Shown one piece after another: positions 8,014 to 46,578 of a stretch of 64,000 nt of DNA (position 1 is its first letter; every line of letters begins with the position of its first letter). The stretch is from assembly GCF_023638035.1 (NCBI RefSeq), contig NZ_JAKRVX010000009.1, forward strand, positions 1-64,000. Direction: 5' to 3'. A model generated the notes under the pieces. It had not been told where the DNA came from. It made no database searches and saw only the letters and a program-made list of their open reading frames with translations. Made by a program: the position numbers and the translations under genes. The stretch is from Natronocalculus amylovorans (lineage in GTDB: Archaea > Halobacteriota > Halobacteria > Halobacteriales > Haloferacaceae).

Positions 8014-8078
8014 CCGGTGAATCAGACGTACAGCAATGGTATCGACAACTGACTATCTCACACAGACCTACAACACAA

Positions 8079-11739: not shown

Positions 11740-11744
11740 ACTAA

Positions 11745-11754
11745 TAACCGGTTA
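11745..11754. promoter_or_regulatory. Short palindrome upstream of the IclR gene
   Basis: TAACCGGTTA, a perfect 10-base palindrome just before the start codon. Position suggests autoregulation. The same motif was not seen at the other promoters of the island, so the assignment is weak. Confidence 0.3.
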
Positions 11755-11832
11755 CGCAGTTTAAAAACCCTTTCTATTTTCCGACGATACCGAACAAAGT
11801 TTCTACATTGTTGAACAATTGGCCCACCAATT

Positions 11833-13236
11833 TCATTTTGGTGACAGTAGCTCTATGAGTGACCTGATCTCTGTATTCATAATTTCTGACCACCCATCAA
11901 CAGCGCTCTGGGCTGTTTCATCTCCCACTGCTGTTGCGAACAGGTCCTTGCATAGCGATCGAAATGCTGTCTCTGAGAGTGGGTTTCGATAATCTCCCTT
12001 TGGATATGGACACGTTTTGTGTAGCGTCTCTCCAGAGGTGAGCGTAATTTCGACGCTCGCGCCCCACTCATCAGGAAACGCCGCTTCAAATGCATCGTCA
12101 TGATGGACATTCACCCGATCGGCTAGCTGTTGTGTCGCTGTATCGGCAACCGCCGCTGACATAAAATCAGCAAGTTCAAGCGGCCCAGCAACGAGCCGTC
12201 GTGCTAGGACGTATGGAATAGAGAACTTCGCGCCGGTCATTGTTTTCGGATGTTTCTGACCCATTGCAACTGCATTGGCATACGTGTAGACATCGATCGA
12301 TTCGATTTCGGACGGACAAATTGCTTCGATATCCATCTGCTCAAGTGCATCAAGCGGGGGATGTGTATATCGGCACGAAGGTGCCCACTTGAAATATGCA
12401 TTTTCGATCTCCCATACTGTTCCTAGCTCGCTGAAAAGCCGGTCAAATTCACCCTCCTCAAGCATCGATTGGAATGGATCGTACACATCTGCGATCGCGG
12501 TTGCTGAGCCTTTGACACCGGACATTGCCAGAACGGCTGCGGACACACCCGCTTGTGCAGAGTATCCCGCTGTGAAGTTCCGAGCCGGAGCACCCTCCTC
12601 ATATGGATCGTGCATTGAAATTACTGCGAGATTCGCCGCAGTTCGGAACACCTCTCGCAACTGCTCTCCGGTTGCACCCATACACTGTGCTGCAGTGAGC
12701 GCCGGGCCGATCGTTGTCCACGTTGCATGTGGATCACGGAGGAGCCATGGCACCGCCTCGTTCAACTTCGCCTTCATTGCGAAAATCGCATACTCAATCC
12801 GTACGCAGAGTTCGTAGCTCCGTACACACGCCTTGACAAACTCCTCACCTGAGCAGTTTTCGGCTTCGGCGACGCCGATTGCACCAGCAACGATACTTGC
12901 TCCAACATGTCCACCCCAATTGTGTCCCTCTTCTATTTCGGGAGTGATTGCTGCGGCCGTGTTCAACAATGCCGAATGTGTGGGGTGGTATGATTTGTCA
13001 GTACCGAGAACGGTTGCATTTCCGTCTGCCAGCGGAGCAGCCTGGGCATGTTGGTGTGCAGACACTGTTGAACCCGCAACTGTTGCAGCAACTACATTCA
13101 GCACCACGTTGCTTCCTGCGTTCATCGCAGACTCCGGTATGTCCGCTGTTAGAAACTCGTATACGTTCGCTTCCCACTCTCGAACCGGTTCTTCTGACAT
13201 CGGTGTTATCTCCGTGTCTATCTTTTGATCTGTCAT
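11833..13236 (-). CDS. MmgE/PrpD family protein (copy 1)
   Basis: 467 aa from the Met at 13236, chosen because it lies 7 bases after the flavoprotein stop; the longer frame to 13290 overlaps that gene. All-alpha N-terminal domain with the family segments LNTAAAITPEIEEGHNWGGH and EFVKACVRSYELCVRIEY, then the alpha/beta domain with YFKWAPSCRYTHPPLDALE. The family includes 2-methylcitrate dehydratase, cis-aconitate decarboxylase and iminodisuccinate epimerase, that is, enzymes acting on C4-C7 di- and tricarboxylates. Which activity applies cannot be read from the sequence. Operon with the flavoprotein gene; a second MmgE/PrpD copy ends the island at 27493-28836. Confidence 0.85.
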   Translation of the reverse strand: MTDQKIDTEITPMSEEPVREWEANVYEFLTADIPESAMNAGSNVVLNVVAATVAGSTVSAHQHAQAAPLADGNATVLGTDKSYHPTHSALLNTAAAITPEIEEGHNWGGHVGASIVAGAIGVAEAENCSGEEFVKACVRSYELCVRIEYAIFAMKAKLNEAVPWLLRDPHATWTTIGPALTAAQCMGATGEQLREVFRTAANLAVISMHDPYEEGAPARNFTAGYSAQAGVSAAVLAMSGVKGSATAIADVYDPFQSMLEEGEFDRLFSELGTVWEIENAYFKWAPSCRYTHPPLDALEQMDIEAICPSEIESIDVYTYANAVAMGQKHPKTMTGAKFSIPYVLARRLVAGPLELADFMSAAVADTATQQLADRVNVHHDDAFEAAFPDEWGASVEITLTSGETLHKTCPYPKGDYRNPLSETAFRSLCKDLFATAVGDETAQSAVDGWSEIMNTEIRSLIELLSPK

Positions 13237-13243
13237 AATGTTC

Positions 13244-14713
13244 TTAGAGCGTTTTTCTCGCATCAATCCCGGCAAGCCGACCCAGTCCACAGGCTGCAGT
13301 CAGTCCATTTCCACTTAAATATCCGCCTGCCCCATTGCCGCTGATTCCCACTGCGACACCGCCGCCCGCATAGAGATTTTCGATTGCAGAGCCATCCTCT
13401 CTGAGCACACGGCCGTTCTTATCCACGACCAGCCCACCTTGGGTGTGAAATAGGGCGCCAGTAACCTTTGCAGCAACAAACGGCGCTGAGAGGACCGACC
13501 GTCCATCAACCCGGCCTGTGTCATCCGGTTCACCAGCAGCAACAGCGTCATTGTACGTGGCGACGGTCTCATTTACTTGCTCAACTGGGAGATCCAGTTT
13601 CTCAGCGATCTCTGACAGTGTCTCACCGTGGATGTAACTTCCCAACTCGATCGCTTTCTCAAAATCCTCAAATTCGCCTCGAAGCGAATCAAAAATTGAC
13701 TTATCGAATATTTCGTACGCAATATTACCCGGCTGCTGGACGACTGAGACCGCGAACTTCGAGTAGCCTGCAGATTCGTTTCCAAATCGCTCTCCGTCAC
13801 TGTTCACCATAATCCCGCCGTTCATTATCACCGCGTACGTTGAGAGCGTCTCCGTGTCCGCTGCAACGGTTGCGTGGCCCTGATACGCATCCATACAGGC
13901 AAGGGTTCCTCCAAGCTCTTTTCCGAGCCTGATTCCATCCCCTGTATTGCCCGGAGAGCCATAATAGAGCGCATCCACCATCTCGTCGCAGTACTCTGTC
14001 ACCATCTCCGTATTTCCAGCAAATCCATCCGTCGCGAGTATCACCTTCTCTGCGGCTACTGCTGTTGGATCGTTCTCTAACTCACCATCTTCCGTGATTG
14101 AATCAACGAGCACACCACAGACTGCACCATCCTCAGCAACGAGCCCTGTCACTGGACGCTGCGTATGGAATGCAATATTTGGCTGCTCTCTAATCCGTTC
14201 AACGAACTCCGCGACGAGATTTTCACCATTGCGCCCATCGGGGGCATGCATCCGATACTCGGAGTGTTTTGGATATTTGAAATCAGCAACTAGATGGAGT
14301 GTAATATCCCACTCATCTACCATCCAATGTATGAGATCTATGTTCGTTTGACAGAGGTGTTCGACCATCGCCCGATCGGCGTTCCCACCGTTTTTTGCCA
14401 TCACATCAGCAACAAAATCTGCGGGTGTTTCTTCAATCCCAGCGTCCTGTTGCAGCCGTGTCCCCGCAGCAGGTATCATTCCTGTAGAAAGTGCTGCGTT
14501 CCCACCTGCTTTGTCTGCCTTTTCGTACAGGTGGACTGAAATATCCGGATCCTCACACGCTGCAAGAGCCGCAACAAGTCCGGTTCCACCAGCACCTGCA
14601 ACTACGATATCTGCCTGTTCGTCGAATGAAACGTCTGTGGCTGACTGCACACGTGTTTCCAACGGTGTACTACTGCCTTGCGTACCCATACCATGACCTT
14701 GTGTGTTTTTCAC
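13244..14713 (-). CDS. FAD-dependent fumarate reductase/ketosteroid dehydrogenase-type oxidoreductase
   Basis: 489 aa with a GTG start at 14713; an ATG at 14689 is an alternative. Rossmann FAD motif VVAGAGGTGLVAALAA at about residues 36-51, followed by KAGGNAALSTG, the hallmark after the first FAD strand in flavocytochrome c and FrdA-like proteins. ILATDGFAGN and the C-terminal NLYAGGGVAVGISGNGAGGY close the FAD site. The family adds or removes hydrogen across C-C double bonds of acids or ring ketones. No Tat or secretion signal, so cytoplasmic. Divergent from the SnoaL/LLM genes with a 20-base inverted repeat between them. Probable role: reduction or desaturation of a catabolic intermediate (inference). 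Confidence 0.85.
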   Translation of the reverse strand: MKNTQGHGMGTQGSSTPLETRVQSATDVSFDEQADIVVAGAGGTGLVAALAACEDPDISVHLYEKADKAGGNAALSTGMIPAAGTRLQQDAGIEETPADFVADVMAKNGGNADRAMVEHLCQTNIDLIHWMVDEWDITLHLVADFKYPKHSEYRMHAPDGRNGENLVAEFVERIREQPNIAFHTQRPVTGLVAEDGAVCGVLVDSITEDGELENDPTAVAAEKVILATDGFAGNTEMVTEYCDEMVDALYYGSPGNTGDGIRLGKELGGTLACMDAYQGHATVAADTETLSTYAVIMNGGIMVNSDGERFGNESAGYSKFAVSVVQQPGNIAYEIFDKSIFDSLRGEFEDFEKAIELGSYIHGETLSEIAEKLDLPVEQVNETVATYNDAVAAGEPDDTGRVDGRSVLSAPFVAAKVTGALFHTQGGLVVDKNGRVLREDGSAIENLYAGGGVAVGISGNGAGGYLSGNGLTAACGLGRLAGIDARKTL

Positions 14714-14735
14714 CTAAGTCTATCGGCTGATATCT

Positions 14736-14755
14736 CACCACAGAATCATGTGGTG
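14736..14755. promoter_or_regulatory. Inverted repeat in the divergent promoter of the island
   Basis: CACCACA-GAATCA-TGTGGTG, perfect 7-base arms with a 6-base spacer, in the 77-base gap between the divergent flavoprotein and SnoaL genes. This is the best operator candidate for a dimeric regulator such as the local IclR protein. Confidence 0.5.
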
Positions 14756-14790
14756 CGTACGCTTAACATGGATGAGGACTCTTATCTGAT

Positions 14791-15192
14791 ATGGGTGACA
14801 CTCCACGAGACGTCGTCGAATCATTTTTTGCCAAAATGTCTGAAGGCGGGACTGCGCGGGAATCTGTGGGTGAACTGTTTCGGGATGATGCAACAATATC
14901 GCTCCCTGGAGCAACGTTTTCAGGTTCGTCTGCAGCGAACGATTTTCTTCAGTTCCTTGCCCCACGGTATGAGTGGGCTGACAAATCGTTTGATCGCTGG
15001 ATCGAAACAGGAAACGAGGTCATCAGCATCGGGACACTCTACGGTGAAACAAATGCTGGGACCGAGTTTGCGGACGTTCGCTACATCGATGTGTATACAA
15101 TCGATCCTGACACCGGATTGATCGCTCGATTAGATATCTGGAACGATCTCGCAGTCGATGGCGTCGTGAGCGTCGCTGAGGCCGGCCAATGA
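14791..15192 (+). CDS. SnoaL/NTF2-like protein
   Basis: 133 aa. One cone-shaped NTF2-like domain: helix RDVVESFFAKMSEG, LFRDDATISLPGATFSGS, then strands with TLYGETNAGTEFADVRYIDV and the ending GLIARLDIWND. SnoaL-like proteins act as small isomerases, hydratases or ring-chemistry helpers on polar substrates. A TATA-like CGCTTAAC lies about 27 bases upstream of the ATG, consistent with a leaderless message. The last 4 bases overlap the LLM gene, so the two are co-translated and probably work in the same step. Confidence 0.75.
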   Translation: MGDTPRDVVESFFAKMSEGGTARESVGELFRDDATISLPGATFSGSSAANDFLQFLAPRYEWADKSFDRWIETGNEVISIGTLYGETNAGTEFADVRYIDVYTIDPDTGLIARLDIWNDLAVDGVVSVAEAGQ

Positions 15193-16172
15193 CCCCCCGA
15201 ACCGGATTTCTGCTGGCACTTGAAGATGATCTAGACACCGTCAAAACCGCGGAAGCGTTGGGCTATGAAAGCCTCTGGGCTGCTGAGGGACAAGGAAAAT
15301 CCGCCTTTGGCAAACTTGAGCGCTGGGCGACAGTCACCGAATCAATCGGCCTTGCGACAGGAATCGTCAATATTTTCGCGAGAACACCTGCAACGACCGC
15401 ATCAGCGATCGCAACGCTTGATGATCATTCGGATGGTCGTGCAATCTTAGGTCTTGGCGTTGCACATCCGGGAGTTGTCGAGGGATTTCATGGTGCGAAG
15501 TTTGAGAAGCCGCTCCCACGAATGCACGAATATATTGAACTGATCCGTCGGTACCTCAATGGTGACGTGTCCGGTTACGATGGACGATTCTTTTCACCTA
15601 CTCGGACGGCGTTTTGGGATGCGTTTGAGCCACTCCGATCTGATATTCCGATCTACAATGGCGCACTTGGCCCAGGAAACGTCCGTTTGACGGGGGAGTT
15701 TGCCGATGGGTGGGTCCCAAATCTGTATCCGATCGATCGATTTGAGACGGCCCTCGAGTGGCTCGAAACCGGACTCGATCGTGGCGGTCGCACGCGTGAC
15801 GACATTGACGTTGCAATGTACATTCTCACCGCGGTCGATGAGGATTCAACTGTTGCACACCAAGCCGCAGCTCACCATATTGCATACTATATGCGCGTGA
15901 TCCCCGGCTACTACGAGCGTGTTGCACGGAAGGCAGGTCTTGATGAGACCGTTGATGACATCTTAGCTGCACCAACGTTTGATGCGGCAGTCACTGCCGT
16001 TTCTCAGGAATTCATTGATCTCGTCGCAATCACGGGGACGCCTGAAACAGCCGTCGAACAGCTCAACCAGTATCGGCGCGCAGGTGTTGACTTACCGATT
16101 GTGCGGGCCCCATCTGGCTGCAGTGACGAAATGAGAGACACCGTTCTGCAGACGTTCGCTCCAGAGAGCTGA
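15189..16172 (+). CDS. Luciferase-like (LLM class) F420- or flavin-dependent oxidoreductase
   Basis: 327 aa TIM-barrel protein. N-terminal TGFLLALEDDLDTVKTAEAL and ESLWAAEGQGKSAF match the first strands of LLM-class F420 enzymes. Further marks are TGIVNIFARTPATTASAIATL, AILGLGVAHP and the late GEFADGWVPNLY. Members include methylene-H4MPT reductase-like F420 enzymes and flavin monooxygenases; haloarchaea have F420, so that cofactor is plausible. In bacteria an LLM monooxygenase (RutA) next to an isochorismatase-fold amidase (RutB) opens pyrimidine rings, a useful parallel for this neighbourhood, though RutA itself is not specifically resembled. Confidence 0.82.
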   Translation: MTPRTGFLLALEDDLDTVKTAEALGYESLWAAEGQGKSAFGKLERWATVTESIGLATGIVNIFARTPATTASAIATLDDHSDGRAILGLGVAHPGVVEGFHGAKFEKPLPRMHEYIELIRRYLNGDVSGYDGRFFSPTRTAFWDAFEPLRSDIPIYNGALGPGNVRLTGEFADGWVPNLYPIDRFETALEWLETGLDRGGRTRDDIDVAMYILTAVDEDSTVAHQAAAHHIAYYMRVIPGYYERVARKAGLDETVDDILAAPTFDAAVTAVSQEFIDLVAITGTPETAVEQLNQYRRAGVDLPIVRAPSGCSDEMRDTVLQTFAPES

Positions 16173-16193
16173 ACTCCGCAGTGGCCATAGCTT

Positions 16194-16207
16194 TATAATC
16201 AATCCGT
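16194..16207 (+). promoter_or_regulatory. TATA box with shared downstream motif, promoter of the amidase operon
   Basis: TATAAT followed directly by CAATCCGT. The same pair, with 2 extra bases between, occurs at 22454-22469 before the ABC ATPase gene. The ATG is 36 bases after the TATA box, with an AGAGGT ribosome-binding site at 16221-16226, so this message has a short leader. Confidence 0.5.
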
Positions 16208-16234
16208 ACCGATTCATGCTAGAGGTCAACACGA

Positions 16235-16900
16235 ATGACAGAACGAATCTGGGAGGACTTACTGTCCGAACAAGATAAACAAGTTATTACAAAAGCAGGA
16301 TATGACAAAGAGGGTGCTTCTTCGTGGGAGTCACGAGGACTTGGAACCAATCCAATGGTTCTTGTCATTGATATGCAACGGCTCATTGTTGGAGAAAACG
16401 AACATATCCTTGATGCAGTCGAAGAGTACCGGACAGCAATGGGACATATTGCATGGGAGGCGATCGAGGAGATCCAACCGTTCCTTTCGTTTGTTAGAGA
16501 GCATGAGATTCCGATCACGTATACTCGAGTTGTTCCATCAAGCTACGATGACCCGACTCATCCGGATTTAGATATTGTTGATGCGGTCGGTCCCGAGCCA
16601 GGGGATACCGTTATTGACAAATCATACGCATCTGCGTTTTATGGGACAGACTTGCTCTCTCGGTTGGTTCGTGGTGGGCATGATTCGGTCATTATCGTTG
16701 GCAACTCAACAAGCGGCTGTGTCCGTGCAACGGCAGTGGATGCGAAACAGAACGGATTCAGCGTCTTGTTGCCACAGGAGTGTATTTTTGATCGTATTGA
16801 GGCATCACACAAAATTGGGTTGCTTGATTTGTGGATGAAATATGCGGAGGTGCTTGAGCGATCGGAAGTACAAGCATACATCGAGGAGTCAATCGCATGA
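16235..16900 (+). CDS. Isochorismatase-fold amidohydrolase (N-carbamoylsarcosine/maleamate amidase type)
   Basis: 221 aa. The Asp-Lys-Cys triad is intact: Asp46 in VLVIDMQR, Lys129 in VIDKSYASAFYGT and Cys162 in STSGCVRATAVDA. The N-terminal extension ending in ESRGLGTNP is typical of the N-carbamoylsarcosine amidase/maleamate amidase branch rather than nicotinamidase. Such enzymes release ammonia (and CO2 from carbamoyl groups) from acyclic half-amides or ureido acids. Overlaps the next gene, a hydantoinase-type cyclic amidohydrolase, by 4 bases. The pair would open a cyclic imide or ureide and then hydrolyse the open product. The substrate is an inference. Confidence 0.88.
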   Translation: MTERIWEDLLSEQDKQVITKAGYDKEGASSWESRGLGTNPMVLVIDMQRLIVGENEHILDAVEEYRTAMGHIAWEAIEEIQPFLSFVREHEIPITYTRVVPSSYDDPTHPDLDIVDAVGPEPGDTVIDKSYASAFYGTDLLSRLVRGGHDSVIIVGNSTSGCVRATAVDAKQNGFSVLLPQECIFDRIEASHKIGLLDLWMKYAEVLERSEVQAYIEESIA

Positions 16901-18300
16901 GCAGCTACGATCTTGTGATCGAGCATGGGCAGGTCGTCATCCCAGAACAGGGTGTCTTCTCGGCTGATGTTGGTGTCCGTGGAGAGACGATTGCGGCGAT
17001 TGCAGAACCGGGCTCACTTGGTGTCGATGGAGAGACGGTCATTGATGCGGCAGGGAAACACGTTCTTCCCGGTGCGATCGATCCACACACCCACCACAGT
17101 ATCTACCGTGGAATGGCTGCAGATGCAGAGAGTGAATCTAGAGGGGATCTTGTTGGCGGCGTCACGACGATTGGGAACTACTTCCGGCGAGCGGGATCCT
17201 ACAAGGAGATTATGGGTGAGTATACTGCCGATGCGGAGGCAAACTACTACCATGACTACTTCTTTTCGCTTGGACTGTTGTCGTTCGAACATATCGACGA
17301 AATTCCGTATATCATTGACGAGCTCGGCATCACCTCGTTCAAATGGTATATGAACTACAAGTATGCTGCCGCGGAGAAGTTTGGCGTCGATTGCGAAATG
17401 AAAGATGATTTTGGCGATGCTTTCATTGCGAAACTCGCCGCACAAGATGTCCCGACAACGCTTGGATACCACTCGGAAAATGTTGAGATCACCAATGCGC
17501 TTGCAGGTGGCAACGTCTACATTGAGGAGGAGGCCGATGAAAACAAAGCGTATGAAGGGTACGAGGTCATGGTTGAGGAGTTCCCTGCACATGCTGAAGC
17601 ACAAGATATGATTTCAGGTGCTGCGATGGCAAAAGTTCACGACTATGATGATCACTTTTACGCAGTTCATATCAGTGCAGGCCAGACTGCAGATGAGCTT
17701 GCTGCACTTCATACTGCAGGATATAATGTCACTGGCGAAACCTGTATTCATTATCTGGCACTCACTGCCGAGGAGTGCGACGAACGAATGAAAGTAAACC
17801 CACCGGTACGAAGCCAAGCCGATCAGGATACGCTTTGGAAGCGCATTGCTGATGGAACCATCAGCTGTATTGGGACCGATCACTGTGCAAATATGCGTGC
17901 CGAAAAGGTGGGAACCGATATTCGAGATTCCAAACTTGGATTCCCAAGTACACCGGTAATGCTTCCGCTCATTCTCTCAGAGGGTGTCAACAACGATCGA
18001 ATCTCGCTCACGCGTGCTGTAGAAATCACAAGCACAAACACGGCAAAAGCCTGGAACCTCTTCCCGAAAAAAGGCGCTATCCGTGTCGGCAGCGACGCAG
18101 ACCTCGTTGTGGTTGATCTGGAGGAAACAAAGACTGTCACTCCTGAACTGCTCCAAGGCGGTCCGGACTATTCACCATATGAGGGCAGAGACGTCACTGG
18201 ATGGCCAACCCAAACGATCGTCCGCGGACAGCTTGCATATGATGATGGTGAAATCGTCGGCGAGCGTGGATTCGGTACACACATCGATCGACCGATCTAA
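16897..18300 (+). CDS. Cyclic amidohydrolase (dihydropyrimidinase/hydantoinase/imidase family)
   Basis: 467 aa. Binuclear metal site complete: His64 and His66 in DPHTHHS, the lysine to be carbamylated Lys149 in SFKWYM, His192 in GYHSEN, His258 in YAVHIS and Asp328 in GTDHC. Small beta-sandwich from N- and C-terminal strands, ending DADLVVVDLEETKTV. Length matches D-hydantoinase and dihydropyrimidinase. The family opens cyclic ureides and cyclic imides such as maleimide and succinimide. Start overlaps the amidase stop (ATGA). The first step of ring opening in the island is its natural role. Confidence 0.88.
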   Translation: MSSYDLVIEHGQVVIPEQGVFSADVGVRGETIAAIAEPGSLGVDGETVIDAAGKHVLPGAIDPHTHHSIYRGMAADAESESRGDLVGGVTTIGNYFRRAGSYKEIMGEYTADAEANYYHDYFFSLGLLSFEHIDEIPYIIDELGITSFKWYMNYKYAAAEKFGVDCEMKDDFGDAFIAKLAAQDVPTTLGYHSENVEITNALAGGNVYIEEEADENKAYEGYEVMVEEFPAHAEAQDMISGAAMAKVHDYDDHFYAVHISAGQTADELAALHTAGYNVTGETCIHYLALTAEECDERMKVNPPVRSQADQDTLWKRIADGTISCIGTDHCANMRAEKVGTDIRDSKLGFPSTPVMLPLILSEGVNNDRISLTRAVEITSTNTAKAWNLFPKKGAIRVGSDADLVVVDLEETKTVTPELLQGGPDYSPYEGRDVTGWPTQTIVRGQLAYDDGEIVGERGFGTHIDRPI

Positions 18301-18368
18301 ACCTGTTACTTATCTGTACTTACACATACAATTTAAGACCAATTGCGACAATGAAACACATACTACCT

Positions 18369-18391
18369 GTTGCCTTCATGCAGATGGCAAC
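18369..18391. promoter_or_regulatory. Inverted repeat upstream of the CoA-transferase gene
   Basis: GTTGCC - 11 bases - GGCAAC, ending 15 bases before the ATG of the CoA-transferase. It could be a regulator site or a weak hairpin at the end of the preceding transcript. Confidence 0.3.
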
Positions 18392-18406
18392 TGCTGATCA
18401 CTGACT

Positions 18407-19612
18407 ATGACTGACACACAACAAGGGCCACTAGACGGCGTGACTGTCGTCGAAGCGGGGACGATGATCTCTGGAAACACGGTCGGCCGACTGCTGGCGG
18501 ACTTTGGAGCGGATGTAATCAAAGTCGAACATCCTGCAAACGGCGACCATCTCCGCCATTTTGGCCCACAAAAAGCGGGCGTTGGACTATGGTGGAAGTA
18601 TCTTGCTAGAAACAAGCGATCGATCACACTCAACTTGAGCACCGAAGATGGAAAAATCGTGTTTGAGGACCTTATCTCAGAAGCAGATGTACTGGTCGAA
18701 AACTTCCGCCCAGGAACGCTTGAGCGTTGGGGCGTTGGGTGGGAGTCGCTTTCGGAACGCAATCCTGGACTGATTATGCTCCGAATCTCCGGCTTCGGGC
18801 AAACAGGGCCGTACGCTGGCAGGCCCGGGTTTGGCACACTTGCGGAGGCGATGAGTGGATTCGCATATCTTAATGGCTATCCGGATCGAGCACCGCTTTT
18901 GCCACCAACGGGGCTCGCTGATGGGATTGCGGCGTTGTTCTCGACGTTCTCGATCGCATTTGCGCTCTATCATCGGGATGCAAATGGGGGGAGCGGCCAG
19001 TATATTGATACGAGCTTGATTGAGCCGATTTTTTCGCTCGTTGGTCCACAGTCGCTTCGGTACCAACAATTAGACGACATTGAAGAACGATCGGGCAACC
19101 GCTCAACCTCATCTGCGCCACGCAATGTATACCGGACAAAAGACGATCGATACGTTGCCATCTCTGCGAGCGCCCAACCGATTGCAATGCGTGTTTTTGA
19201 TGCGATCGAACGCCCAGAGCTGAAAGATGATCCACGATTCGAGACAAACGAGAAACGGCTTGAAAACGTCGAGGCGCTCGACGACGCCATCCAAGCATGG
19301 ATGGATGAGAACGATCGCGAAACGGTGATCTCGGTCTTCGAAGATGCAGAAGCGACCGTTGCCCCAATCTACAATATTGCGGATATTCTCGACGATGAAC
19401 ACTATAATGCGCGCGAGGCTGTCGTCTCAGTTCCCGATCCCGAACTTGGTGAAGGGCTGGTTCAAAACGCATTCCCTGTGTTTAGCGAGACACCCGGACA
19501 TGTGAGCCACCTCGGACCACAGCTTGGCGAACATAATGACGAAATTTACGGTGAGTTGCTTGCATATGATGCGACAGAGCGTACTCGGCTTGCTGAAGAG
19601 GGGGTGATCTAA
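18407..19612 (+). CDS. Class III (CaiB/BaiF) CoA-transferase
   Basis: 401 aa. Hallmarks: LDGVTVVEAGTMISG at the N-terminus, GADVIKVEHPANGD, the nucleotide-binding RNKRSITLNL, ENFRPGTLERWG, and the catalytic aspartate Asp172 in PPTGLADGIAAL. The family moves CoA between carboxylic acids without free CoA. Followed by an HMG-CoA-lyase-like gene with one-base overlap. In Chloroflexus the same pairing is succinyl-CoA:D-citramalate CoA-transferase plus (R)-citramalyl-CoA lyase, which is the best-supported analogy. Here it would activate the hydroxy acid made by the LeuCD-type hydratase encoded just downstream. Confidence 0.9.
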   Translation: MTDTQQGPLDGVTVVEAGTMISGNTVGRLLADFGADVIKVEHPANGDHLRHFGPQKAGVGLWWKYLARNKRSITLNLSTEDGKIVFEDLISEADVLVENFRPGTLERWGVGWESLSERNPGLIMLRISGFGQTGPYAGRPGFGTLAEAMSGFAYLNGYPDRAPLLPPTGLADGIAALFSTFSIAFALYHRDANGGSGQYIDTSLIEPIFSLVGPQSLRYQQLDDIEERSGNRSTSSAPRNVYRTKDDRYVAISASAQPIAMRVFDAIERPELKDDPRFETNEKRLENVEALDDAIQAWMDENDRETVISVFEDAEATVAPIYNIADILDDEHYNAREAVVSVPDPELGEGLVQNAFPVFSETPGHVSHLGPQLGEHNDEIYGELLAYDATERTRLAEEGVI

Positions 19613-21905: not shown

Positions 21906-22408
21906 GTGATCGCGACCCAGACACTGCCGGACAAGCGTGGGTATTCGGTGCTGATATTGATACCGATCAGATTACGCCATCGAGATTTATTGTCTCGTCG
22001 GATCCTAAAGAGCTTGCAACGCATGCGTTCAACGATCTTCGACCGGAGTTTTCAGCGAACGTTTCTCCAGGTGATTTTGTTGTTGCTGGTGAAAACTTCG
22101 GCAGCGGCTCCTCACGAGAGCATGCACCGCTCTCGTTGATTGGTGCCGGTGTCTCAGGTGTCGTTGCACAGTCGTTTGCACGAATCTTCTTCAGAAACGG
22201 CATCAACCTCGGGCTTCCACTGTTGATCTGCCCAGACGCCGATCGGATCGACGACGGTGATGAAATTAGTATGGATGTTGCTGATGGCGTTGTCCATAAC
22301 CACACAAAAGATGAGTCATACGAGGCGGAGGCACTCCCACCGTTTTTGCAATCGCTTGTTGAATCCGGGGGACTCAAAGAGTACACGAAATCAAAACTCG
22401 AATCATAG
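21902..22408 (+). CDS. Aconitase-family hydratase, small (LeuD/HacB-like) subunit
   Basis: 168 aa swivel-domain protein: WVFGADIDTDQITPSRF, then ENFGSGSSREHAPL with the substrate-binding Ser/Arg, then VAQSFARIFFRNGINLGLP. In LeuD and HacB proteins the four residues after the DTD...P-x-R segment (YLxx loop) tune specificity. Here the loop reads FIVS, unlike the YLRT-type loop of homoaconitases and the usual YLVY/YLNT-type of isopropylmalate isomerases. That supports a different substrate. ATGA overlap with the large subunit; last gene of the CoA-transferase/lyase/hydratase operon. Confidence 0.87.
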   Translation: MSDRDPDTAGQAWVFGADIDTDQITPSRFIVSSDPKELATHAFNDLRPEFSANVSPGDFVVAGENFGSGSSREHAPLSLIGAGVSGVVAQSFARIFFRNGINLGLPLLICPDADRIDDGDEISMDVADGVVHNHTKDESYEAEALPPFLQSLVESGGLKEYTKSKLES

Positions 22409-22453
22409 TTGCTTTTATTTGTTTGTGGATTGTTGGTCTGTGACAGGGAAACG

Positions 22454-22469
22454 TATAATATCAATCCGT
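22454..22469 (+). promoter_or_regulatory. TATA box with shared CAATCCGT motif, promoter of the ABC genes
   Basis: TATAAT, two bases, then CAATCCGT, matching the arrangement at 16194-16207. The distance to the GTG at 22484 (about 27 bases) is that of a leaderless haloarchaeal transcript, which is why 22484 is preferred as the start of the ABC gene. Confidence 0.5.
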
Positions 22470-22483
22470 GTCTCAGTGTGAAT

Positions 22484-24064
22484 GTGAATGACACGATTCT
22501 AGAGACGAGCGAGCTGAAGAAGTCTTTCGGCGCGCTCGTCGCAAACGACGGTATTTCGCTTTCTGTGGAAGCGGGCGAGGTACATGCAATAATCGGGCCA
22601 AACGGGAGCGGTAAGTCCACGTTTTTTAATACGATAACTGGATTCTATAAGCCAGATTCCGGCTCCGTCCGGTTTGATGGTGAGGAAATAACTGGGTGGC
22701 GATCCGATCGAATTGCACGCCGCGGATTGGGTCGAACATTTCAAATCGCATCGCCGTTTGAGGACTTAACGGTCAGAGAGAATCTCCTTGGTGTGTATAC
22801 TGAAGGTCTTGGATCCGGCATCAGGATCTCAAAAGAAAAGCGGAAACGGGCGGACGAGATCCTTGAACTACTGGAGATTCCACATATCGCTGATCATGAG
22901 GCCAGTGACATTAGTGGTGGGCAGCAACAACTCTTGGAGCTTGGGCGTATACTAATGCTTGAGCCCGAGTGCATTCTGCTTGACGAACCAACAGCAGGAG
23001 TAAATCCCGCGCTACAGAACCGAATCCTCAAACATCTGCGAACGATCAATGAACAGGGGACAACGTTTGTACTGATTGAACACGACATGAGCGTTATTTC
23101 AAACATTGCCGATCGTGTTACCGTGTTTGATCAGGGGCAAATCGTCACACAAGGATCGTTTGAAGAAGTCACGGCGGACCACAGAGTCCGAGAGGCATAC
23201 TTAGGGCAAAGCGATGATCCAAACGCTGGTGTTGCAGATGTACTCTCAGATGTTGAGGAACAGAGCTCTTCAGTGGCCGACACGTCCGATCCTGTTGACG
23301 TCCCTACTGGCGGTGGTGCTACAGCTGTTCAACAAAACATAAAAACGCCCAAATCAGAAGGCCGCCTTGTTGGAACAGATATTGTTACCGGGTACGGCAA
23401 TCACAAAGTCATCAAGGGTATCTCCGTTGAGAGTCGAGATGGTATCACGTGTATTTTTGGGCCGAACGGAAGCGGTAAATCAACCCTCCTGAAATCGCTT
23501 GCGGGTGTGGTCCCTGCGTGGTCTGGTACACTTACATACAACGGACAAGATATTACGGCAAATGGTCCACATGAAAATGTTCGTCTTGGGGTCGCAATGC
23601 TGCCACAAGATGGCGGTATTTTTGGAAATTTGAGTGTTCGAGAGAACTTGTTGTTAGGCGGTTTTACCGTTGATGATCCTGATGTGATGAAAGAACGGAT
23701 GGAGACTGCATTGGACGCCTTTCCTGCGCTTCGAGATAAAATGGCAGATGACGGAAAATCACTCTCTGGCGGACAACAGATGATGCTTAGCTTCGCTCGG
23801 GCGATGATGACTGGGGCTGATGTATACCTCCTTGATGAACCAAGTGCAGGACTTGCACCATCTCTTGTTGATGATGCATTCGAAATGGCAACACGGCTCG
23901 TTGATCATGGTGCACAGGTTATTCTGATTGAGCAGAATGTTCGCGAGGCCCTTCGTATTGCAGATTATGTATATATTCTTGCACAGGGAGAACTGCAGTT
24001 TGAAGGTGATCCTACGACGCTTACAGACGAGGACGACCTTGTTGAATTGTATCTCGGTATCTGA
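22484..24064 (+). CDS. Branched-chain-type ABC transporter ATPase, LivG and LivF fused in one chain
   Basis: 526 aa from the GTG at 22484. First NBD (LivG-like, about 1-250): Walker A IIGPNGSGKST, signature ISGGQQQLLELG, Walker B CILLDEPTAGVNP, and LivG-type extra segment TFQIASPFEDLTVRENL. A 60-residue acidic linker follows. Second NBD (LivF-like, about 290-526): Walker A IFGPNGSGKST, MLPQDGGIFGNLSVRENLL, signature LSGGQQMMLSFAR and YLLDEPSAGLAP. In most genomes LivG and LivF are separate genes; the fusion forces a 1:1 heterodimer. Energises import by the adjacent binding protein and the two permeases. Confidence 0.9.
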   Translation: MNDTILETSELKKSFGALVANDGISLSVEAGEVHAIIGPNGSGKSTFFNTITGFYKPDSGSVRFDGEEITGWRSDRIARRGLGRTFQIASPFEDLTVRENLLGVYTEGLGSGIRISKEKRKRADEILELLEIPHIADHEASDISGGQQQLLELGRILMLEPECILLDEPTAGVNPALQNRILKHLRTINEQGTTFVLIEHDMSVISNIADRVTVFDQGQIVTQGSFEEVTADHRVREAYLGQSDDPNAGVADVLSDVEEQSSSVADTSDPVDVPTGGGATAVQQNIKTPKSEGRLVGTDIVTGYGNHKVIKGISVESRDGITCIFGPNGSGKSTLLKSLAGVVPAWSGTLTYNGQDITANGPHENVRLGVAMLPQDGGIFGNLSVRENLLLGGFTVDDPDVMKERMETALDAFPALRDKMADDGKSLSGGQQMMLSFARAMMTGADVYLLDEPSAGLAPSLVDDAFEMATRLVDHGAQVILIEQNVREALRIADYVYILAQGELQFEGDPTTLTDEDDLVELYLGI

Positions 24065-24124
24065 CCTATAGTGTAAATTTGATTAAAATTTTGCAAAGAT
24101 ATATGTTGTATGAGTACACATACC

Positions 24125-25417
24125 ATGAATATGGATCCGACAGTGACAAATCCGTCTAGTAGAAGATCGTTTATCAAGTACGGAGGGGCAGCGGGTATCG
24201 TTGGACTGGCTGGCTGTTTGACTGATGACGGTAATGGAAATGGGAACGGGAACGGAGATGGGAACGGGAATGGTGCGACCGTCGGGGATAGCGATGATTC
24301 GGTCGATACCGTTGTTATTGGGTCAAACCACCCACTCACGGGTGACCTCTCGTTTACAGGGACACGGATGGATAATGCAATTAAACTGGCTGCAATGCTC
24401 AAAAATGAGCAGGGAGGCATTGAGTCCCTCGATGGTGCTGAGGTCGAAGTTATCAGCGAAGACAATCAGGGGGAACAGGAACTTGGCAGTGAAGTTGCAC
24501 AGGAACTTGTAAACGACGGAGCAGACGTACTCACCGGGTGTTTCTCATCACCGGTCACTAACGCTGCAACACGTGTTGCAGAGCGTGAACAGATACCATT
24601 CGTTATCTCGGTTTCGATCGATGACGATATTCTGCAAGAGACACCACTTGATTACGTGTACCGTCCACAGCCAAGTGCAGATCGTATGTCTCGCGATCAC
24701 GCGGAAATCATGCCACAAGTGGCACGCGACGCTGGTATTGAGGTAGAGACTGCAGGGTTATTTTACATTGACATCAGCTTTGGACAGTCTGTTAGAGATA
24801 CGCTTCGTGACGCGCTTCCAGAGAACGGTGTGGAGATTGTTCAAGAAACGTCCATTGACTTTGGTGGAACCGCAGATACGCAAGTAACAAGCCTCCGTGA
24901 GGCTGATCCGGACGTTATCATTGCAACCACGTACGAAGCAGGGACTGTTGAACTGCTTCGAGCAATGGATAATCAGGACTACCGACCACCAGTGCTTGCT
25001 GGCTGTGCAAATGCGGCACTCAATGATACCGGTGAGCTTGCTGAAATAGGTGAGATCGCGAACGGTGCACTCGCTACAAACTTTGGACTGAATCCAACGC
25101 TGGATGAGACCGCCGAGGTACGAGAGCGCTTCAGTGAAGAGTTCGACCAGACAATGGATGCTAACGTTGGAATGTCATATGCTTCAGCGCAAGTGATTAT
25201 CGCAGCGATCGAAGAAGCAGGTAGCGGAGACCCAGAAGATATCAATAACACGCTCAAAGAGATCGAAGTAACTGACCACATCGCTGCAATGCCGCCAGTC
25301 ACGTTTAGAGACGACGGCGAGAATGAAAATGCACTTGGTGTGCTGTTCCAAGTTCAGGACCTCGTCGATCGTGTTATCTCCCCTGAGGAGTTTGCCGAGG
25401 CTGAACCGACGTTCTAA
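24125..25417 (+). CDS. ABC transporter substrate-binding lipoprotein (Leu/Ile/Val or amide-binding type)
   Basis: 430 aa. The start at 24125 follows a TATA-like GATATAT at 24099-24105; an ATG at 24110 is also possible. Tat motif SSRRSFIKYGG, lipobox GLAGC, then a Gly-Asn repeat linker and the periplasmic-binding domain beginning VVIGSNHPLTGDLSFTG. Later segments FVISVSIDDDI and LFYIDISFGQSVRDTL match the type I fold of LivJ/amide-urea binding proteins. Exported folded by Tat and anchored at the outer membrane face. Ligand unknown; by context an N-heterocycle, amide or carboxylate fed into the island's enzymes. Confidence 0.88.
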   Translation: MNMDPTVTNPSSRRSFIKYGGAAGIVGLAGCLTDDGNGNGNGNGDGNGNGATVGDSDDSVDTVVIGSNHPLTGDLSFTGTRMDNAIKLAAMLKNEQGGIESLDGAEVEVISEDNQGEQELGSEVAQELVNDGADVLTGCFSSPVTNAATRVAEREQIPFVISVSIDDDILQETPLDYVYRPQPSADRMSRDHAEIMPQVARDAGIEVETAGLFYIDISFGQSVRDTLRDALPENGVEIVQETSIDFGGTADTQVTSLREADPDVIIATTYEAGTVELLRAMDNQDYRPPVLAGCANAALNDTGELAEIGEIANGALATNFGLNPTLDETAEVRERFSEEFDQTMDANVGMSYASAQVIIAAIEEAGSGDPEDINNTLKEIEVTDHIAAMPPVTFRDDGENENALGVLFQVQDLVDRVISPEEFAEAEPTF

Positions 25418-25438
25418 CAAAAGATATACAATTTACAA

Positions 25439-26383
25439 ATGGTATCTACTTCGATCTTGGCAGTATCTTCCCACCTATCACCGGGTATTGTTGCAACTGC
25501 CGTTGGTGTTCCGCTCCAATCCGGGACGACGATTGTACAACTACTCGTTTTTGCACTGTTGTTGGGCGGAATCTATGGGCTTGTTGCCCTTGGGCTTACC
25601 ATGATCTTTGGTGTCATGGATGTGATTAATTTCGCCCATGGTGCACTGATGGTACTTGCAATGTACATCGTCTGGTCGCTCTCAAGCGCAAGCGGGCTGA
25701 CACCGTTGGTCTTCATCCCGATCGCTGTCGTCGCTCTATTCGGGGTTGGCATCTTGATACACCACTTTACGATCGCACCCATTATGGAGGCACCCCAAGA
25801 AAATCAGCTGATCGTAACGTTTGGTGTGATGTTGATCCTTATTAGCTCGATTGAGATTGCATTCTCACCGAACCCACGAAGCTACAATATTGACCTCGGC
25901 TCTGTTGGGGCTGCGGGCGTGTTCATTCCGGAAGGGCAACTGTATGCACTTGTAATCTCCATCACTGCAGTGATTGGAATGTGGCTATTCCTGCAACGAA
26001 CACAGTTGGGCCGTGCAATTCGTGGAACTGCAGACAACCGATCGGGCGCAAAGTTTGTTGGAATTAATATCAAACGCATTGATTACCTGACGTTCGGACT
26101 TGGTGCGGCACTCGCAGGACTTGCCGGTGCAGCGATTCCGCTTATCCAACGGTTTGACCCATACATTGGTGATGTGTACCTAATTAATGCATTCGTCATT
26201 GTTGTGCTCGGTGGGTTAGGGTCGTTCCCTGGGGCGCTCCTTGGCGGTATGATTATTGGATTTGTACAGGTGTTTGGGCAGTTTTACCTACCAGGGTCAG
26301 TCTACCAAGTGATGATATTTATGATCTTCATTCTGGTTCTGTTGCTTCGACCTGAGGGGCTTCTTGGAGGGAAACGTACATGA
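25439..26383 (+). CDS. Branched-chain-type ABC permease (LivH-like)
   Basis: 314 aa with about eight hydrophobic helices. LivH features: GGIYGLVALGLTMIFGVMDV followed by NFAHGAL, and GRAIRGTADN followed by an IKRIDYLTF segment (coupling loop). The closing AFVIVVLGGLGSFPGALLGG motif is standard for this permease type. Twenty-one bases after the binding-protein stop and overlapping the LivM-like gene by four bases. Confidence 0.9.
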   Translation: MVSTSILAVSSHLSPGIVATAVGVPLQSGTTIVQLLVFALLLGGIYGLVALGLTMIFGVMDVINFAHGALMVLAMYIVWSLSSASGLTPLVFIPIAVVALFGVGILIHHFTIAPIMEAPQENQLIVTFGVMLILISSIEIAFSPNPRSYNIDLGSVGAAGVFIPEGQLYALVISITAVIGMWLFLQRTQLGRAIRGTADNRSGAKFVGINIKRIDYLTFGLGAALAGLAGAAIPLIQRFDPYIGDVYLINAFVIVVLGGLGSFPGALLGGMIIGFVQVFGQFYLPGSVYQVMIFMIFILVLLLRPEGLLGGKRT

Positions 26384-27486
26384 GTTCAGAAACTGGTTCT
26401 TCACTTTCTACTGTGTGGCATCGATACAAACAGTTCCGTAATGAATCATATGCAACACCGTTACTGCTTGGGATCATTTTTGGCATTCTGATTGTGCTTC
26501 CTGCACTGCTTGAAGTATCAATTGCCGGATACTCGCTTGGGACTCGAGTCAGCCTTGGGATGCTGATTGTCACGCTTGTGTGGGCATACACTGCCCAATC
26601 GTGGAACATTATGTCCGGGTTCACCGGGCAGTTCTCTTTTGGACATGCTGCATTCTTTGGACTTGGTGCATACGGTACAATCCTACTTGTTTCAAACTAC
26701 TCCATCAACCCGTGGATCGGGATGCTGGTCGGTGCAGTGTTAGCTGCACTCTATGGATTGCTCATTGGTGTGCTTTGTTTCCGATACGACCTTCGAGGCC
26801 ACTATTTTGCGCTTGCGACACTTGCGTTCGCAGAACTGCTTCGATTCATTATCAACAATATTGGCGCACTAGGTGGGGCAAGCGGGTTCATTAAACCGCT
26901 TCCGCGCGAGTATGCGGATGGGCCGGGACTGCTTGCGTTCCAGTTCAGCACCGACCTGCCGTACTACTATGTGATTTTGGCATTCCTGTTGATTGTCACA
27001 ACTGTCGCATTCGTTATTCGAAACTCGCGGTTCGGTTTGTATCTGTTTGCGATTCGTGAGGACGAGAATGCAGCCGCAGCAGTTGGGATTCCAACATTCA
27101 AATACAAACTGTCTGCTGTCGCTATTAGTGCATTCTTTACCGCATGGGCAGGCGCATTCTGGGCGATGTACTTCGACACAATCCGCCCAGACACGGTATT
27201 TGACCTGCTGATTAATGTTGAGATCCTCTTGCCAGCGATTGTTGGTGGCCTTGGAACCGTTATCGGACCAATTCTTGGCTCGTTTATTGTCACTCCGCTC
27301 AGTGAGATCGCACGACAGTCGCTTGATCTGCCCGGGACCGATCGAATCGTCTACGGACTCCTGCTCGTGCTGATTGTGCTATACAGTCCCAAAGGGGTTG
27401 TATCGTGGCCGAAGCGTCTTGCCGACCTTCTTGGATGGCAGGACTCACCAACAGACGAGGACGCAGTAGATGAGACGCACAACTAA
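26380..27486 (+). CDS. Branched-chain-type ABC permease (LivM-like)
   Basis: 368 aa, about ten hydrophobic helices after a hydrophilic N-terminus of about 27 residues. LivM marks are GFTGQFSFGHAAFFGLGAYG, GHYFALATLAFAELLRF, the coupling loop RNSRFGLYLFAIREDENAAA and the closing LPAIVGGLGTVIGPILGS. Partner of the LivH-like permease encoded upstream (ATGA overlap). The acidic C-terminal tail is cytoplasmic. Confidence 0.9.
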   Translation: MSSETGSSLSTVWHRYKQFRNESYATPLLLGIIFGILIVLPALLEVSIAGYSLGTRVSLGMLIVTLVWAYTAQSWNIMSGFTGQFSFGHAAFFGLGAYGTILLVSNYSINPWIGMLVGAVLAALYGLLIGVLCFRYDLRGHYFALATLAFAELLRFIINNIGALGGASGFIKPLPREYADGPGLLAFQFSTDLPYYYVILAFLLIVTTVAFVIRNSRFGLYLFAIREDENAAAAVGIPTFKYKLSAVAISAFFTAWAGAFWAMYFDTIRPDTVFDLLINVEILLPAIVGGLGTVIGPILGSFIVTPLSEIARQSLDLPGTDRIVYGLLLVLIVLYSPKGVVSWPKRLADLLGWQDSPTDEDAVDETHN

Positions 27487-27492
27487 CAGACT

Positions 27493-28836
27493 ATGACCAA
27501 TCGAAATTCCATTGAAACCGATCTTGCGACGCTAGTTGTCGGTTTTTCGATCGAGTCCGTGGATCAGGCAATCCTCGAACGGGCAGCACTCACTGCTGCA
27601 GATACCATCGGCGCAATCATTGGTGGGCTCGATGATCCAACAGTTCAGGGACTCCTTACAGAGTTCGAACAGTCTACAGGAACGAGCAACCCTATCGGGA
27701 CAAACATACCAATGGCACCCGAGCACAGTGCGTTTGTACAAGGTACTGCTGGGACGTCGTTGGAACTCGATGAGGGTCACCAGTTTGCCGGTGGCCACCC
27801 AGCGATTCATGTTTTGCCTGCACTTATTGCTGCAATCCAACAGAACAGCTACACAAGTACAGAGATACAGACTGCGTTTATTATTGGTTATGAGGTTGCT
27901 GCGAGAGTTGGACAAGCATGCGCTCCATTAGCAGATGGGTACCATCCACATGGTGTTTGGGGTGGTGTCGGGGCAGCCGCAGCAATCTCGAAACTCAGAC
28001 AGTTTGACGTTGCGACCACCCGTGCTGCGATGCAGATTGCAGCAAATAATGCACAGCATACACACTTTGCGGCGGCAACAGAGGGTGCAACTGTAAGAAA
28101 TACGTATGCCGGTATGAGTAACCTCACCGGCTATCTTGCTGCTCGCGTTGCAGCCGCGGGTGTTACTGGGACCGTTGCGGGGATCGAACGCCATCTTTCA
28201 TTAGCCACTGCAGATGGATTTGATACCACCGCCCTCACCCGATCGATTGGTGATCCATTCGAGATTGAACGCGGATATTTCAAACAGTATCCTGCGTGCC
28301 GGTTCACTCACGCTGCGATTGATGCGATGGCTGCGATCCAAGCATCAAATACCGTCTCTATAGATTCAATCGAAGACATTACGATCGAAACATACGATGC
28401 CGCGGCAGCGCTTGATTCGACGACTCCGTCCTCTGCACTTGCGGCTCGGTTTTCGCTTCCATTCACCGTTGCTTTGCAGTGTGTCCATGGGACTGTTGAA
28501 AAGAAGGCATTTTACTTTGATACAGTACCTGACTCACTTACTAGTGTGATGAACATTATGACACTTGCTGCGACTGATGAGTTTGAAGACCGTGCACCTG
28601 CGGAACGCGGATGCCGGATTACGGTTACGCTTACAGATGGACAAAAACTGAGCGAAACAGTCAGTGAGGCAAAAGGAGGTCACAGTAATCCATTCACAGC
28701 TGCAGAACTTCAGACAAAATTTACAAACCTTGTTTCACCACTGCTTGATGAGGGGACCTCAGCTAGACTTTGGGAAGTCATTGCTGTTGATTTTGACCTA
28801 CATCGTGGTCTGACAGTTATGAGTTCTAAATTGTGA
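27493..28836 (+). CDS. MmgE/PrpD family protein (copy 2)
   Basis: 447 aa. Family segments: AALTAADTIGAIIGGLDDP, LDEGHQFAGGHPAIHVLPAL, YHPHGVWGGVGAAAAISKL and YFKQYPACRFTHAAIDAM. Shorter than the copy at 11833 and clearly diverged, so not a recent duplication. It lies 6 bases after the LivM-like gene, so it belongs to the transporter transcript. Two MmgE/PrpD proteins at the two ends of the island suggest two different hydratase, isomerase or decarboxylase steps. The specific reaction cannot be read. Confidence 0.85.
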   Translation: MTNRNSIETDLATLVVGFSIESVDQAILERAALTAADTIGAIIGGLDDPTVQGLLTEFEQSTGTSNPIGTNIPMAPEHSAFVQGTAGTSLELDEGHQFAGGHPAIHVLPALIAAIQQNSYTSTEIQTAFIIGYEVAARVGQACAPLADGYHPHGVWGGVGAAAAISKLRQFDVATTRAAMQIAANNAQHTHFAAATEGATVRNTYAGMSNLTGYLAARVAAAGVTGTVAGIERHLSLATADGFDTTALTRSIGDPFEIERGYFKQYPACRFTHAAIDAMAAIQASNTVSIDSIEDITIETYDAAAALDSTTPSSALAARFSLPFTVALQCVHGTVEKKAFYFDTVPDSLTSVMNIMTLAATDEFEDRAPAERGCRITVTLTDGQKLSETVSEAKGGHSNPFTAAELQTKFTNLVSPLLDEGTSARLWEVIAVDFDLHRGLTVMSSKL

Positions 28837-46456: not shown

Positions 46457-46483
46457 GAATCCCGTGATACGTGGTATCAAGAT

Positions 46484-46494
46484 ATAGTTATAGA
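46484..46494 (-). promoter_or_regulatory. TATA box of the aldehyde dehydrogenase gene
   Basis: Minus-strand CTATAACTATA about 28-38 bases before the GTG at 46456, the spacing of leaderless haloarchaeal promoters. It is what decides that start codon. Confidence 0.45.
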
Positions 46495-46556
46495 GCGTCG
46501 TGGAAAACCACCACGTGTGTAATAATGTACTAAATCTAAAAGAAACAGCGAGAGTT

Positions 46557-46578
46557 CCACAGGTCACCCAACCTGTGG
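46557..46578. repeat. Hairpin repeat, copy 1
   Basis: CCACAGGT-CACCCA-ACCTGTGG, perfect 8-base arms, followed by TCGTTTAC. A sister hairpin with the same loop core and the same GTGGTCGTTTAC tail lies at 61537-61558. Confidence 0.5.

Follow-up and report, generated by a model that had tools for sequence, protein, structure and literature searches.

Which compound might be degraded by the enzymes encoded in a compact gene island of the haloarchaeon Natronocalculus amylovorans, and by what route? The island lies at 10969-28836 of the 64,000-nucleotide stretch analyzed here (positions 1 to 64,000 of contig NZ_JAKRVX010000009.1; hereafter the window), as established by gene calling and by scans with Pfam and NCBIfam models. 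It encodes a cyclic amidohydrolase (Hyd), an isochorismatase-fold amidase (Isoch), a two-subunit hydratase (LeuC and LeuD, together LeuCD), a class III coenzyme A (CoA) transferase (CaiB) and an enzyme resembling 3-hydroxy-3-methylglutaryl-CoA (HMG-CoA) lyase (HMGL), accompanied by an LLM-class oxidoreductase, a SnoaL-like protein, a flavoprotein, two MmgE/PrpD proteins (PrpD1 and PrpD2), a Liv-type importer and an IclR-family regulator. Judged from these genes and their relatives, the island appears, with a probability of about one half, to be a dedicated catabolic operon for an imported small N-heterocycle that is, or becomes, an alkyl-substituted cyclic imide.

According to this proposal the Liv importer would take up the heterocycle, and the LLM and SnoaL proteins would act upstream of ring opening, perhaps as an F420-linked dehydrogenase converting a hydroxylactam to the imide. 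Hyd, to judge by its fold and metal site, would open the ring, and Isoch would take ammonia off the half-amide to give a branched C4-dicarboxylate, whose saturation and stereochemistry may be tuned by the flavoprotein and the MmgE/PrpD proteins. LeuCD would then add water to an alkylmaleate, yielding an alkylmalate, a reaction with which its conserved loop is consistent; CaiB would form the CoA thioester of the alkylmalate, and HMGL would cleave this thioester to an acyl-CoA and a 2-oxoacid (acetyl-CoA and pyruvate if the acid is citramalate). We infer all of these steps from gene content, conservation, replacement of the lyase in related loci and residue differences.

Co-inheritance of a six-gene core

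Ortholog searches covered 295 Halobacteriales genomes. Orthologs of LeuC were found in 19 of these (18 besides that of the window, at 69-77% identity, the next group reaching at most 48%), of HMGL in 21 and of Isoch in 20, and all three occur together in the same 19 genomes, which represent 11 genera (hypergeometric probability ~1e-28, with genomes treated as independent and kinship ignored); this coincidence marks the island as a functional unit. Isoch, Hyd, CaiB, HMGL, LeuC and LeuD are contiguous and in identical order in all 18 other haloarchaeal loci, and around this core the genes for LLM, IclR, SnoaL and PrpD, the flavoprotein and the Liv importer change position from locus to locus. 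Carriers include Haloferax lucentense, H. alexandrinus, H. gibbonsii, Halorubrum ezzemoulense, and plasmids of Halomarina and Natrinema. On a single plasmid of Halomarina sp. BND7 the core is split, with the flavoprotein, Isoch and Hyd at ~260-264 kb and PrpD, CaiB, HMGL, LeuC and LeuD at ~289-298 kb, the pattern expected of a nitrogen-removing half and a carbon-cleaving half. A preliminary description of this DNA had taken the island for one catabolic unit whose gene order other haloarchaea might share; the intact core in 18 further genomes and the coincidence of three orthologs support a single co-inherited catabolic unit.

In Haloferax lucentense a hutUGIH operon (L036:24033-29586) lies ~3 kb downstream of the island. 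Three other haloarchaeal loci (L123, L124 and L125) carry CaiB and HMGL without Isoch or Hyd, with a UGSC-family protein adjoining in L123; these are candidates for a second pathway that uses the same lyase.

Replacement of the carbon-carbon lyase

The C-C lyase found beside related Isoch-Hyd pairs belongs to three unrelated families: HMGL in the window, a RipC-like CitE in Halomarina, and an isocitrate-lyase/phosphoenolpyruvate-mutase enzyme in the haloarchaeon G015 and in bacteria. All three families cleave malate-type 3-hydroxyacids or their CoA esters, and their interchange is therefore the best evidence for malate-type C-C cleavage as the last step. In Halomarina the CitE (RipC being of the citramalyl-CoA lyase family; 153 bits against a model cut-off of 375) and its own CaiB adjoin a paralogous Isoch-Hyd pair. 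In G015 the isocitrate-lyase-type enzyme, with a KRCGH motif, accompanies orthologous Isoch and Hyd (72% and 69% identical to those of the window), a different LeuCD, an ADP-forming CoA ligase and an acyl-CoA dehydrogenase; the ortholog search found no match to HMGL in this genome, which is 76% complete. The preliminary description had proposed a hydrolase and an amidase acting on a cyclic imide, followed by an aconitase-family hydratase, CoA activation and cleavage of a citramalyl-CoA type. The series of reactions, including malate-type cleavage, is supported by the lyase replacement; the ring is a putative cyclic imide, and citramalyl-CoA itself is a plausible intermediate, as any 2- or 3-alkylmalyl-CoA would fit the HMGL step.

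A scan of bacterial genomes with Isoch alone yielded 80 loci. Among those of at least 12 kb that contain Hyd (n = 53), an aconitase-family hydratase is present in 29, an isocitrate-lyase-type lyase in 29 and both in 23, with the flavoprotein in 21 and MmgE/PrpD in 15; the corresponding counts in loci with Isoch but without Hyd (n = 18) are hydratase 0, lyase 2, flavoprotein 1 and MmgE/PrpD 0 (kinship is not controlled in either set). Related clusters occur in Pseudomonadota, Actinomycetota and Bacillota. The chain had been thought undescribed in an archaeon; no description was found in the papers searched, but the existence of bacterial relatives means that the claim of archaeal exclusivity needs revision.

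A porphobilinogen-deaminase (hemC) gene lies near the Shinella cluster and another inside the Azospirillum cluster (L038:23417-24349; L048:17498-18427), and a hemL-like class III aminotransferase is found in Shinella (L038:22069-23358) with relatives in L053, L054, L057, L058 and L064; neither type of gene is found in the haloarchaeal core. Pigment-derived maleimides as the substrate are a speculation for which these genes offer indirect hints, a lead and not evidence. That an undescribed pathway shared by haloarchaea and bacteria mineralizes tetrapyrrole-derived alkylated maleimides or succinimides, or pyrroles, with HMGL, CitE and isocitrate-lyase-type enzymes interchangeable at its end, seems rather unlikely; if true, the hemC- and hemL-like genes near some of the bacterial versions would belong to the pathway.

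Locus L105 (4880-6690) has two PuuE-type hydrolases of the polysaccharide-deacetylase family (cyclic imide hydrolase superfamily), adjoined by DUF4387-AtuA, isochorismatases and a PrpD-flavoprotein-PrpD triplet.

Proposed ring opening and release of nitrogen

A pair of hydrolases acting one after the other can free nitrogen from either of two ring types: a cyclic imide leaves a diacid, a cyclic ureide an amino acid. The binuclear metal site diagnostic of the Hyd fold (HxH, a carbamylated Lys, two His and an Asp) is complete, with H64, H66, K149, H192, H258 and D328 invariant in alignment A2, and Hyd is accordingly placed by prediction among the cyclic amidohydrolases of the dihydropyrimidinase/hydantoinase fold; it stays under the D-hydantoinase/dihydropyrimidinase equivalog cut-off (TIGR02033, 247 vs 393 bits). 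The Asp-Lys-Cys triad of Isoch is likewise complete (D41, K143 and C176 in first-row numbering, invariant in alignment A1), as predicted for an isochorismatase-fold cysteine amidase. Its relatives in the PDB include 26st, 4l07 and 3uao.

In a tree the haloarchaeal Isoch proteins form one supported group, to which those of the bacterial clusters are nearest (with weak support), and nicotinate-type amidases fall outside. Isoch is related, at 32-34%, to the probable maleamate amidases assigned to NicF by context and lies outside that group; nic context is absent from the island. Two relatives labelled N-carbamoylsarcosine amidohydrolase (L133:2974-3612 and L134:3959-4600, both on plasmids) adjoin an FAD monooxygenase, a deformylase/hydrolase and an Asp/Glu racemase, with nicD in L134, and the isochorismatase of L137 is accompanied by a maleate isomerase. 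The L133 and L134 proteins are probably mis-annotated maleamate amidases, and the nicotinate-type setting of all three loci means that maleamate amidases are probably among the close outside relatives of Isoch.

No aminotransferase or ammonia-lyase was found in the conserved haloarchaeal core. This is expected if nitrogen leaves as ammonia from an imide, which needs no deaminating enzyme; since none is conserved, the best candidate is an alkyl-substituted cyclic imide. Five-membered alkyl imides suit LeuCD best since they yield a vicinal cis-dicarboxylate directly; a six-membered ring would have to carry one more carboxylate.

Other observations weigh against an alkyl imide. The closest outside relative of Hyd (59% identical) sits in a haloarchaeal ergothioneine/hydantoin-type cluster. 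Its companions there are a second hutU-like gene, an ammonia-lyase gene and one for an ErtE-like carbamoylase (neither the ErtD nor the ErtE model reaches its cut-off), a setting that suggests hydantoin(-5-propionate)-type chemistry; hydantoins are for this reason among the possible substrates of Hyd. The similarity of Isoch to N-carbamoylsarcosine amidohydrolase (87 bits) and to 4l07 (83 bits) is nearly equal. Many bacterial clusters have AcnA, and the acid formed there may accordingly be a tricarboxylate instead of an alkylmaleate; bacterial Hyd is only ~35% identical, so that the substrate there may differ. Finally, LLM, SnoaL and both PrpD proteins have roles that the pathway leaves unexplained.

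The alternative that survives best, unlikely though far from negligible, is a cyclic ureide: Hyd would open a 5-substituted hydantoin or dihydropyrimidine, Isoch would be an N-carbamoyl amidohydrolase, and the amino acid would be deaminated elsewhere before LeuCD, CaiB and HMGL act. Besides the 59% relative, it is favored by the best NCBIfam models for Hyd, which are dihydropyrimidinase/hydantoinase, and by the top PDB match of Isoch, 26st, an N-carbamoylsarcosine amidohydrolase. The core, however, lacks a deaminating enzyme, the ergothioneine-like cluster of L037 uses a Zn-dependent ErtE-like carbamoylase and not an isochorismatase, and the diacid expected from an imide fits the hydratase and lyase better.

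Two haloarchaeal loci (L037:8675-19112 and L041:6680-15614) combine a second hutU-like gene, an ammonia-lyase and a relative of Hyd, with an ErtE-like carbamoylase additionally in L037; they are candidates for archaeal degradation of ergothioneine or methylhistidine.

The nearest solved structures of LLM are those of F420-dependent Mer, and SnoaL, which adjoins LLM in most loci, is its apparent partner; LLM might be a hydroxylactam-to-imide dehydrogenase, a tentative assignment. Pyrimidine opening of the RutA/RutB type is disfavored, LLM being F420/Mer-like and RutB a distant match only.

Proposed hydration, CoA activation and cleavage

The recognition loop of LeuD reads PSRF(I/L)V in all orthologs, with a hydrophobic residue (Val) at the position of an Arg in homoaconitase. 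That Arg, in the small-subunit loop, reportedly serves the extra carboxylate (Jeyakanthan, 2010). With Val in its place, the side chain of the LeuCD substrate is likely to be alkyl rather than carboxylate. A role of the small-subunit recognition loop is cited in PMC7308503. Homoaconitase was rejected as the identity of LeuCD (loop without Arg; HacB_Meth 134 vs 230). The isopropylmalate isomerase of leucine synthesis was also rejected: the window LeuC scores far below TIGR00170, and a second LeuC, above the cut-off, is encoded elsewhere in the genome (C14:327107), with a PF00682 (LeuA-family) gene 5 kb away. LeuCD is accordingly not the leucine enzyme.

A six-membered imide, derived from a pyridine such as a substituted 2,6-dihydroxyisonicotinate, could instead give an aconitate-like tricarboxylate for the aconitase-family hydratase and the lyase. 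Relatives of dihydropyrimidinase favor six-membered rings, and in bacterial clusters Hyd-Isoch is accompanied by true AcnA (1163 bits) and by methylisocitrate-lyase-like enzymes; set against this are the Val of the LeuD loop, where an Arg would be looked for, and the fact that unsubstituted aconitate needs no dedicated lyase. We regard this route as improbable.

HMGL retains PRDG, HxHD and GN (the catalytic Arg, Asp, both His, and Asn), but the Cys of the G-loop is replaced by Gly with a three-residue insertion, and this altered loop is constant in all orthologs compared; for this reason HMGL is probably not an HMG-CoA lyase, and it is proposed to be an alkylmalyl-CoA (citramalyl-CoA-type) lyase. 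The relatives of CaiB include succinate-glutarate and succinyl-CoA:mesaconate CoA-transferases, the cut-offs of whose models it does not reach; CaiB is proposed to be an alkylmalate CoA-transferase. A quite remote alternative is ordinary activation of 3-hydroxy-3-methylglutarate and its cleavage to acetoacetate and acetyl-CoA, to which the HMGL score (285 bits, over the NCBIfam HMG-CoA lyase subfamily cut-off of 246) and the kinship of CaiB with SUGCT would lend themselves. It runs counter to the altered G-loop and to the absence of leucine-degradation genes from the island; moreover, aconitase-family enzymes form 2-hydroxyacids, and 3-hydroxy-3-methylglutarate is not one. That LeuCD is of the leucine type and merely happens to adjoin a pyrimidine hydrolase and a CoA lyase, each family being common by itself, is already contradicted by the identical order in 19 genomes, the co-occurrence and the separate leucine leuC, and is very unlikely.

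Flavoprotein, MmgE/PrpD proteins and regulator

The nearest solved relatives of the flavoprotein are flavocytochrome c fumarate reductases. A Tyr occupies the position of their acid Arg, the second (carboxylate-binding) Arg is lost and both His are kept; the active site thus appears not to be of the fumarate reductase type. The signature GYS / LFHTQGG / GYxSGN is common to 15 haloarchaeal and ~20 bacterial cluster loci and is absent from other, unrelated flavoproteins in the same loci; a ring or C4-unit dehydrogenase/reductase is proposed. Proteins of the MmgE/PrpD family have C4-dicarboxylates as substrates; one of them, a methylsuccinate isomerase, adjoins a CoA-transferase and citramalyl-CoA lyase (PMC12290011). 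PrpD1, with orthologs in L018, L023, L024, L122 and L126, is proposed to be an epimerase/isomerase of the branched C4-dicarboxylate, and PrpD2, whose nearest solved relatives are IRG1/cis-aconitate decarboxylase and iminodisuccinate epimerase, an epimerase/isomerase. IclR genes flank the same cluster in L018, L023, L024 and the Haloferax locus L036, and IclR probably regulates the island.

Gene content and surroundings

The island is compact (Table 1): three minus-strand genes are followed by a plus-strand run from SnoaL to PrpD2, in which spacing is at most 106 bases and several neighbors overlap by 1-4 bases. Every family named in the preliminary description is present and its position range is right; the order it listed is wrong, and it overlooked the flavoprotein and the second of the two MmgE/PrpD genes.

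Table 1. Genes of the island, with positions in the window and the basis of each assignment.
Feature	Position	Strand	Basis
IclR-family regulator	10969-11739	-	Pfam IclR_C 1.5e-44
MmgE/PrpD protein 1 (PrpD1)	11833-13290	-	Pfam MmgE_PrpD N and C domains
FAD_binding_2 flavoprotein	13244-14713	-	Pfam scan
SnoaL-like protein	14791-15192	+	SnoaL_2 1.8e-07
LLM-class oxidoreductase, F420-dependent type	15189-16172	+	Pfam Bac_luciferase; best NCBIfam models are F420 LLM families
Isochorismatase-fold cysteine amidase (Isoch)	16235-16900	+	Pfam 1e-26
Dihydropyrimidinase/hydantoinase-fold cyclic amidohydrolase (Hyd)	16897-18300	+	NCBIfam models; metal-site residues
Class III CoA-transferase, CaiB family (CaiB)	18407-19612	+	Pfam 4.6e-117
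HMG-CoA-lyase-like enzyme (HMGL)	19612-20589	+	NCBIfam; residue alignment
LeuC-type large subunit of hydratase	20586-21905	+	NCBIfam; ortholog comparison
LeuD-type small subunit of hydratase	21902-22408	+	TIGR02087 above cut-off
Fused LivF/LivG ATPase of importer	22409-24064	+	Two ABC_tran stretches; TTG start doubtful
LivK-type binding protein	24110-25417	+	Peripla_BP_6 6.8e-50
LivH-type permease	25439-26383	+	BPD_transp_2
LivM-type permease	26380-27486	+	BPD_transp_2
MmgE/PrpD protein 2 (PrpD2)	27493-28836	+	Pfam MmgE_PrpD N and C domains

Directly upstream (2577-10384) are genes for an Mre11-like phosphoesterase, a Rad50/SMC-like ATPase, NurA and HerA in a row, which suggest a chromosomal location. 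Downstream are two TnpB/OrfB genes (IS605-type, Cas12f-like; 30385-31608 and 52368-53639, minus strand) and, ~14-16 kb from the island, amidase-family and aldehyde dehydrogenase genes (42819-44009 and 45095-46567, minus strand).

Significance

The island offers a complete, testable candidate pathway with transporter, regulator and ~10 enzymes. If alkyl imides are degraded, this would be a biological sink for a class of compounds that includes chlorophyll-derived maleimides and for which the literature searched contained no gene cluster. The proposal, if true, would also mean that one degradation scheme can end in any of three unrelated C-C lyases, and would give functions to MmgE/PrpD and flavoprotein subfamilies that now bear family names only.

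Comparison with known systems

Taken singly, the enzyme families are already known, as are the half-pathways (nicotinate, itaconate/methylsuccinate, fungal imide opening). The combined pathway, or a conserved island with bacterial relatives, was not found in a literature search of incomplete journal coverage, nor was a gene cluster for such a pathway in the literature on citrazinate, hematinic acid, imidase and 2-ethyl-3-methylmalate.

As in the maleamate branch of nicotinate and nicotine degradation (NicF, NicE), an isochorismatase-fold amidase would free ammonia to give a maleate-type acid, and the nearest context-assigned relatives of Isoch are the probable NicF proteins of L133, L134 and L137. 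Unlike that branch, the island would open the ring by an amidohydrolase and cleave the acid after hydration; Pfam scans of 10969-28836 found neither the NicX dioxygenase nor the NicD deformylase family. Ergothioneine utilization (ErtD/ErtE) shares a related cyclic amidohydrolase, but its carbamoylase is Zn-dependent, and its hutU-like hydratase and ammonia-lyase are absent from the window cluster. In Chloroflexus, D-citramalate CoA-transferase and R-citramalyl-CoA lyase likewise combine a class III CoA-transferase with an HMGL-family lyase; this pair is not known to have an amidohydrolase/amidase front end.

In the fungal nicotinate pathway, HxnM opens a cyclic imide and HxnN then hydrolyzes the half-amide (PMC9304392), the same order as is proposed here; unlike Hyd, however, HxnM is of the polysaccharide-deacetylase type, and the fungal product is 2-hydroxyglutarate, with no CoA lyase (PMC9304392). 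The itaconate/methylsuccinate cluster (PMC12290011) resembles the island in its CaiB-type CoA-transferase, MmgE/PrpD isomerase and C-C lyase yielding acetyl-CoA and pyruvate. Pfam scans found neither a CoA-ester hydratase nor a CitE-type lyase family in the island, which, in contrast to that cluster, would hydrate by LeuCD before CoA activation, employ an HMGL-family lyase rather than CitE, and add a nitrogen-removing front end.

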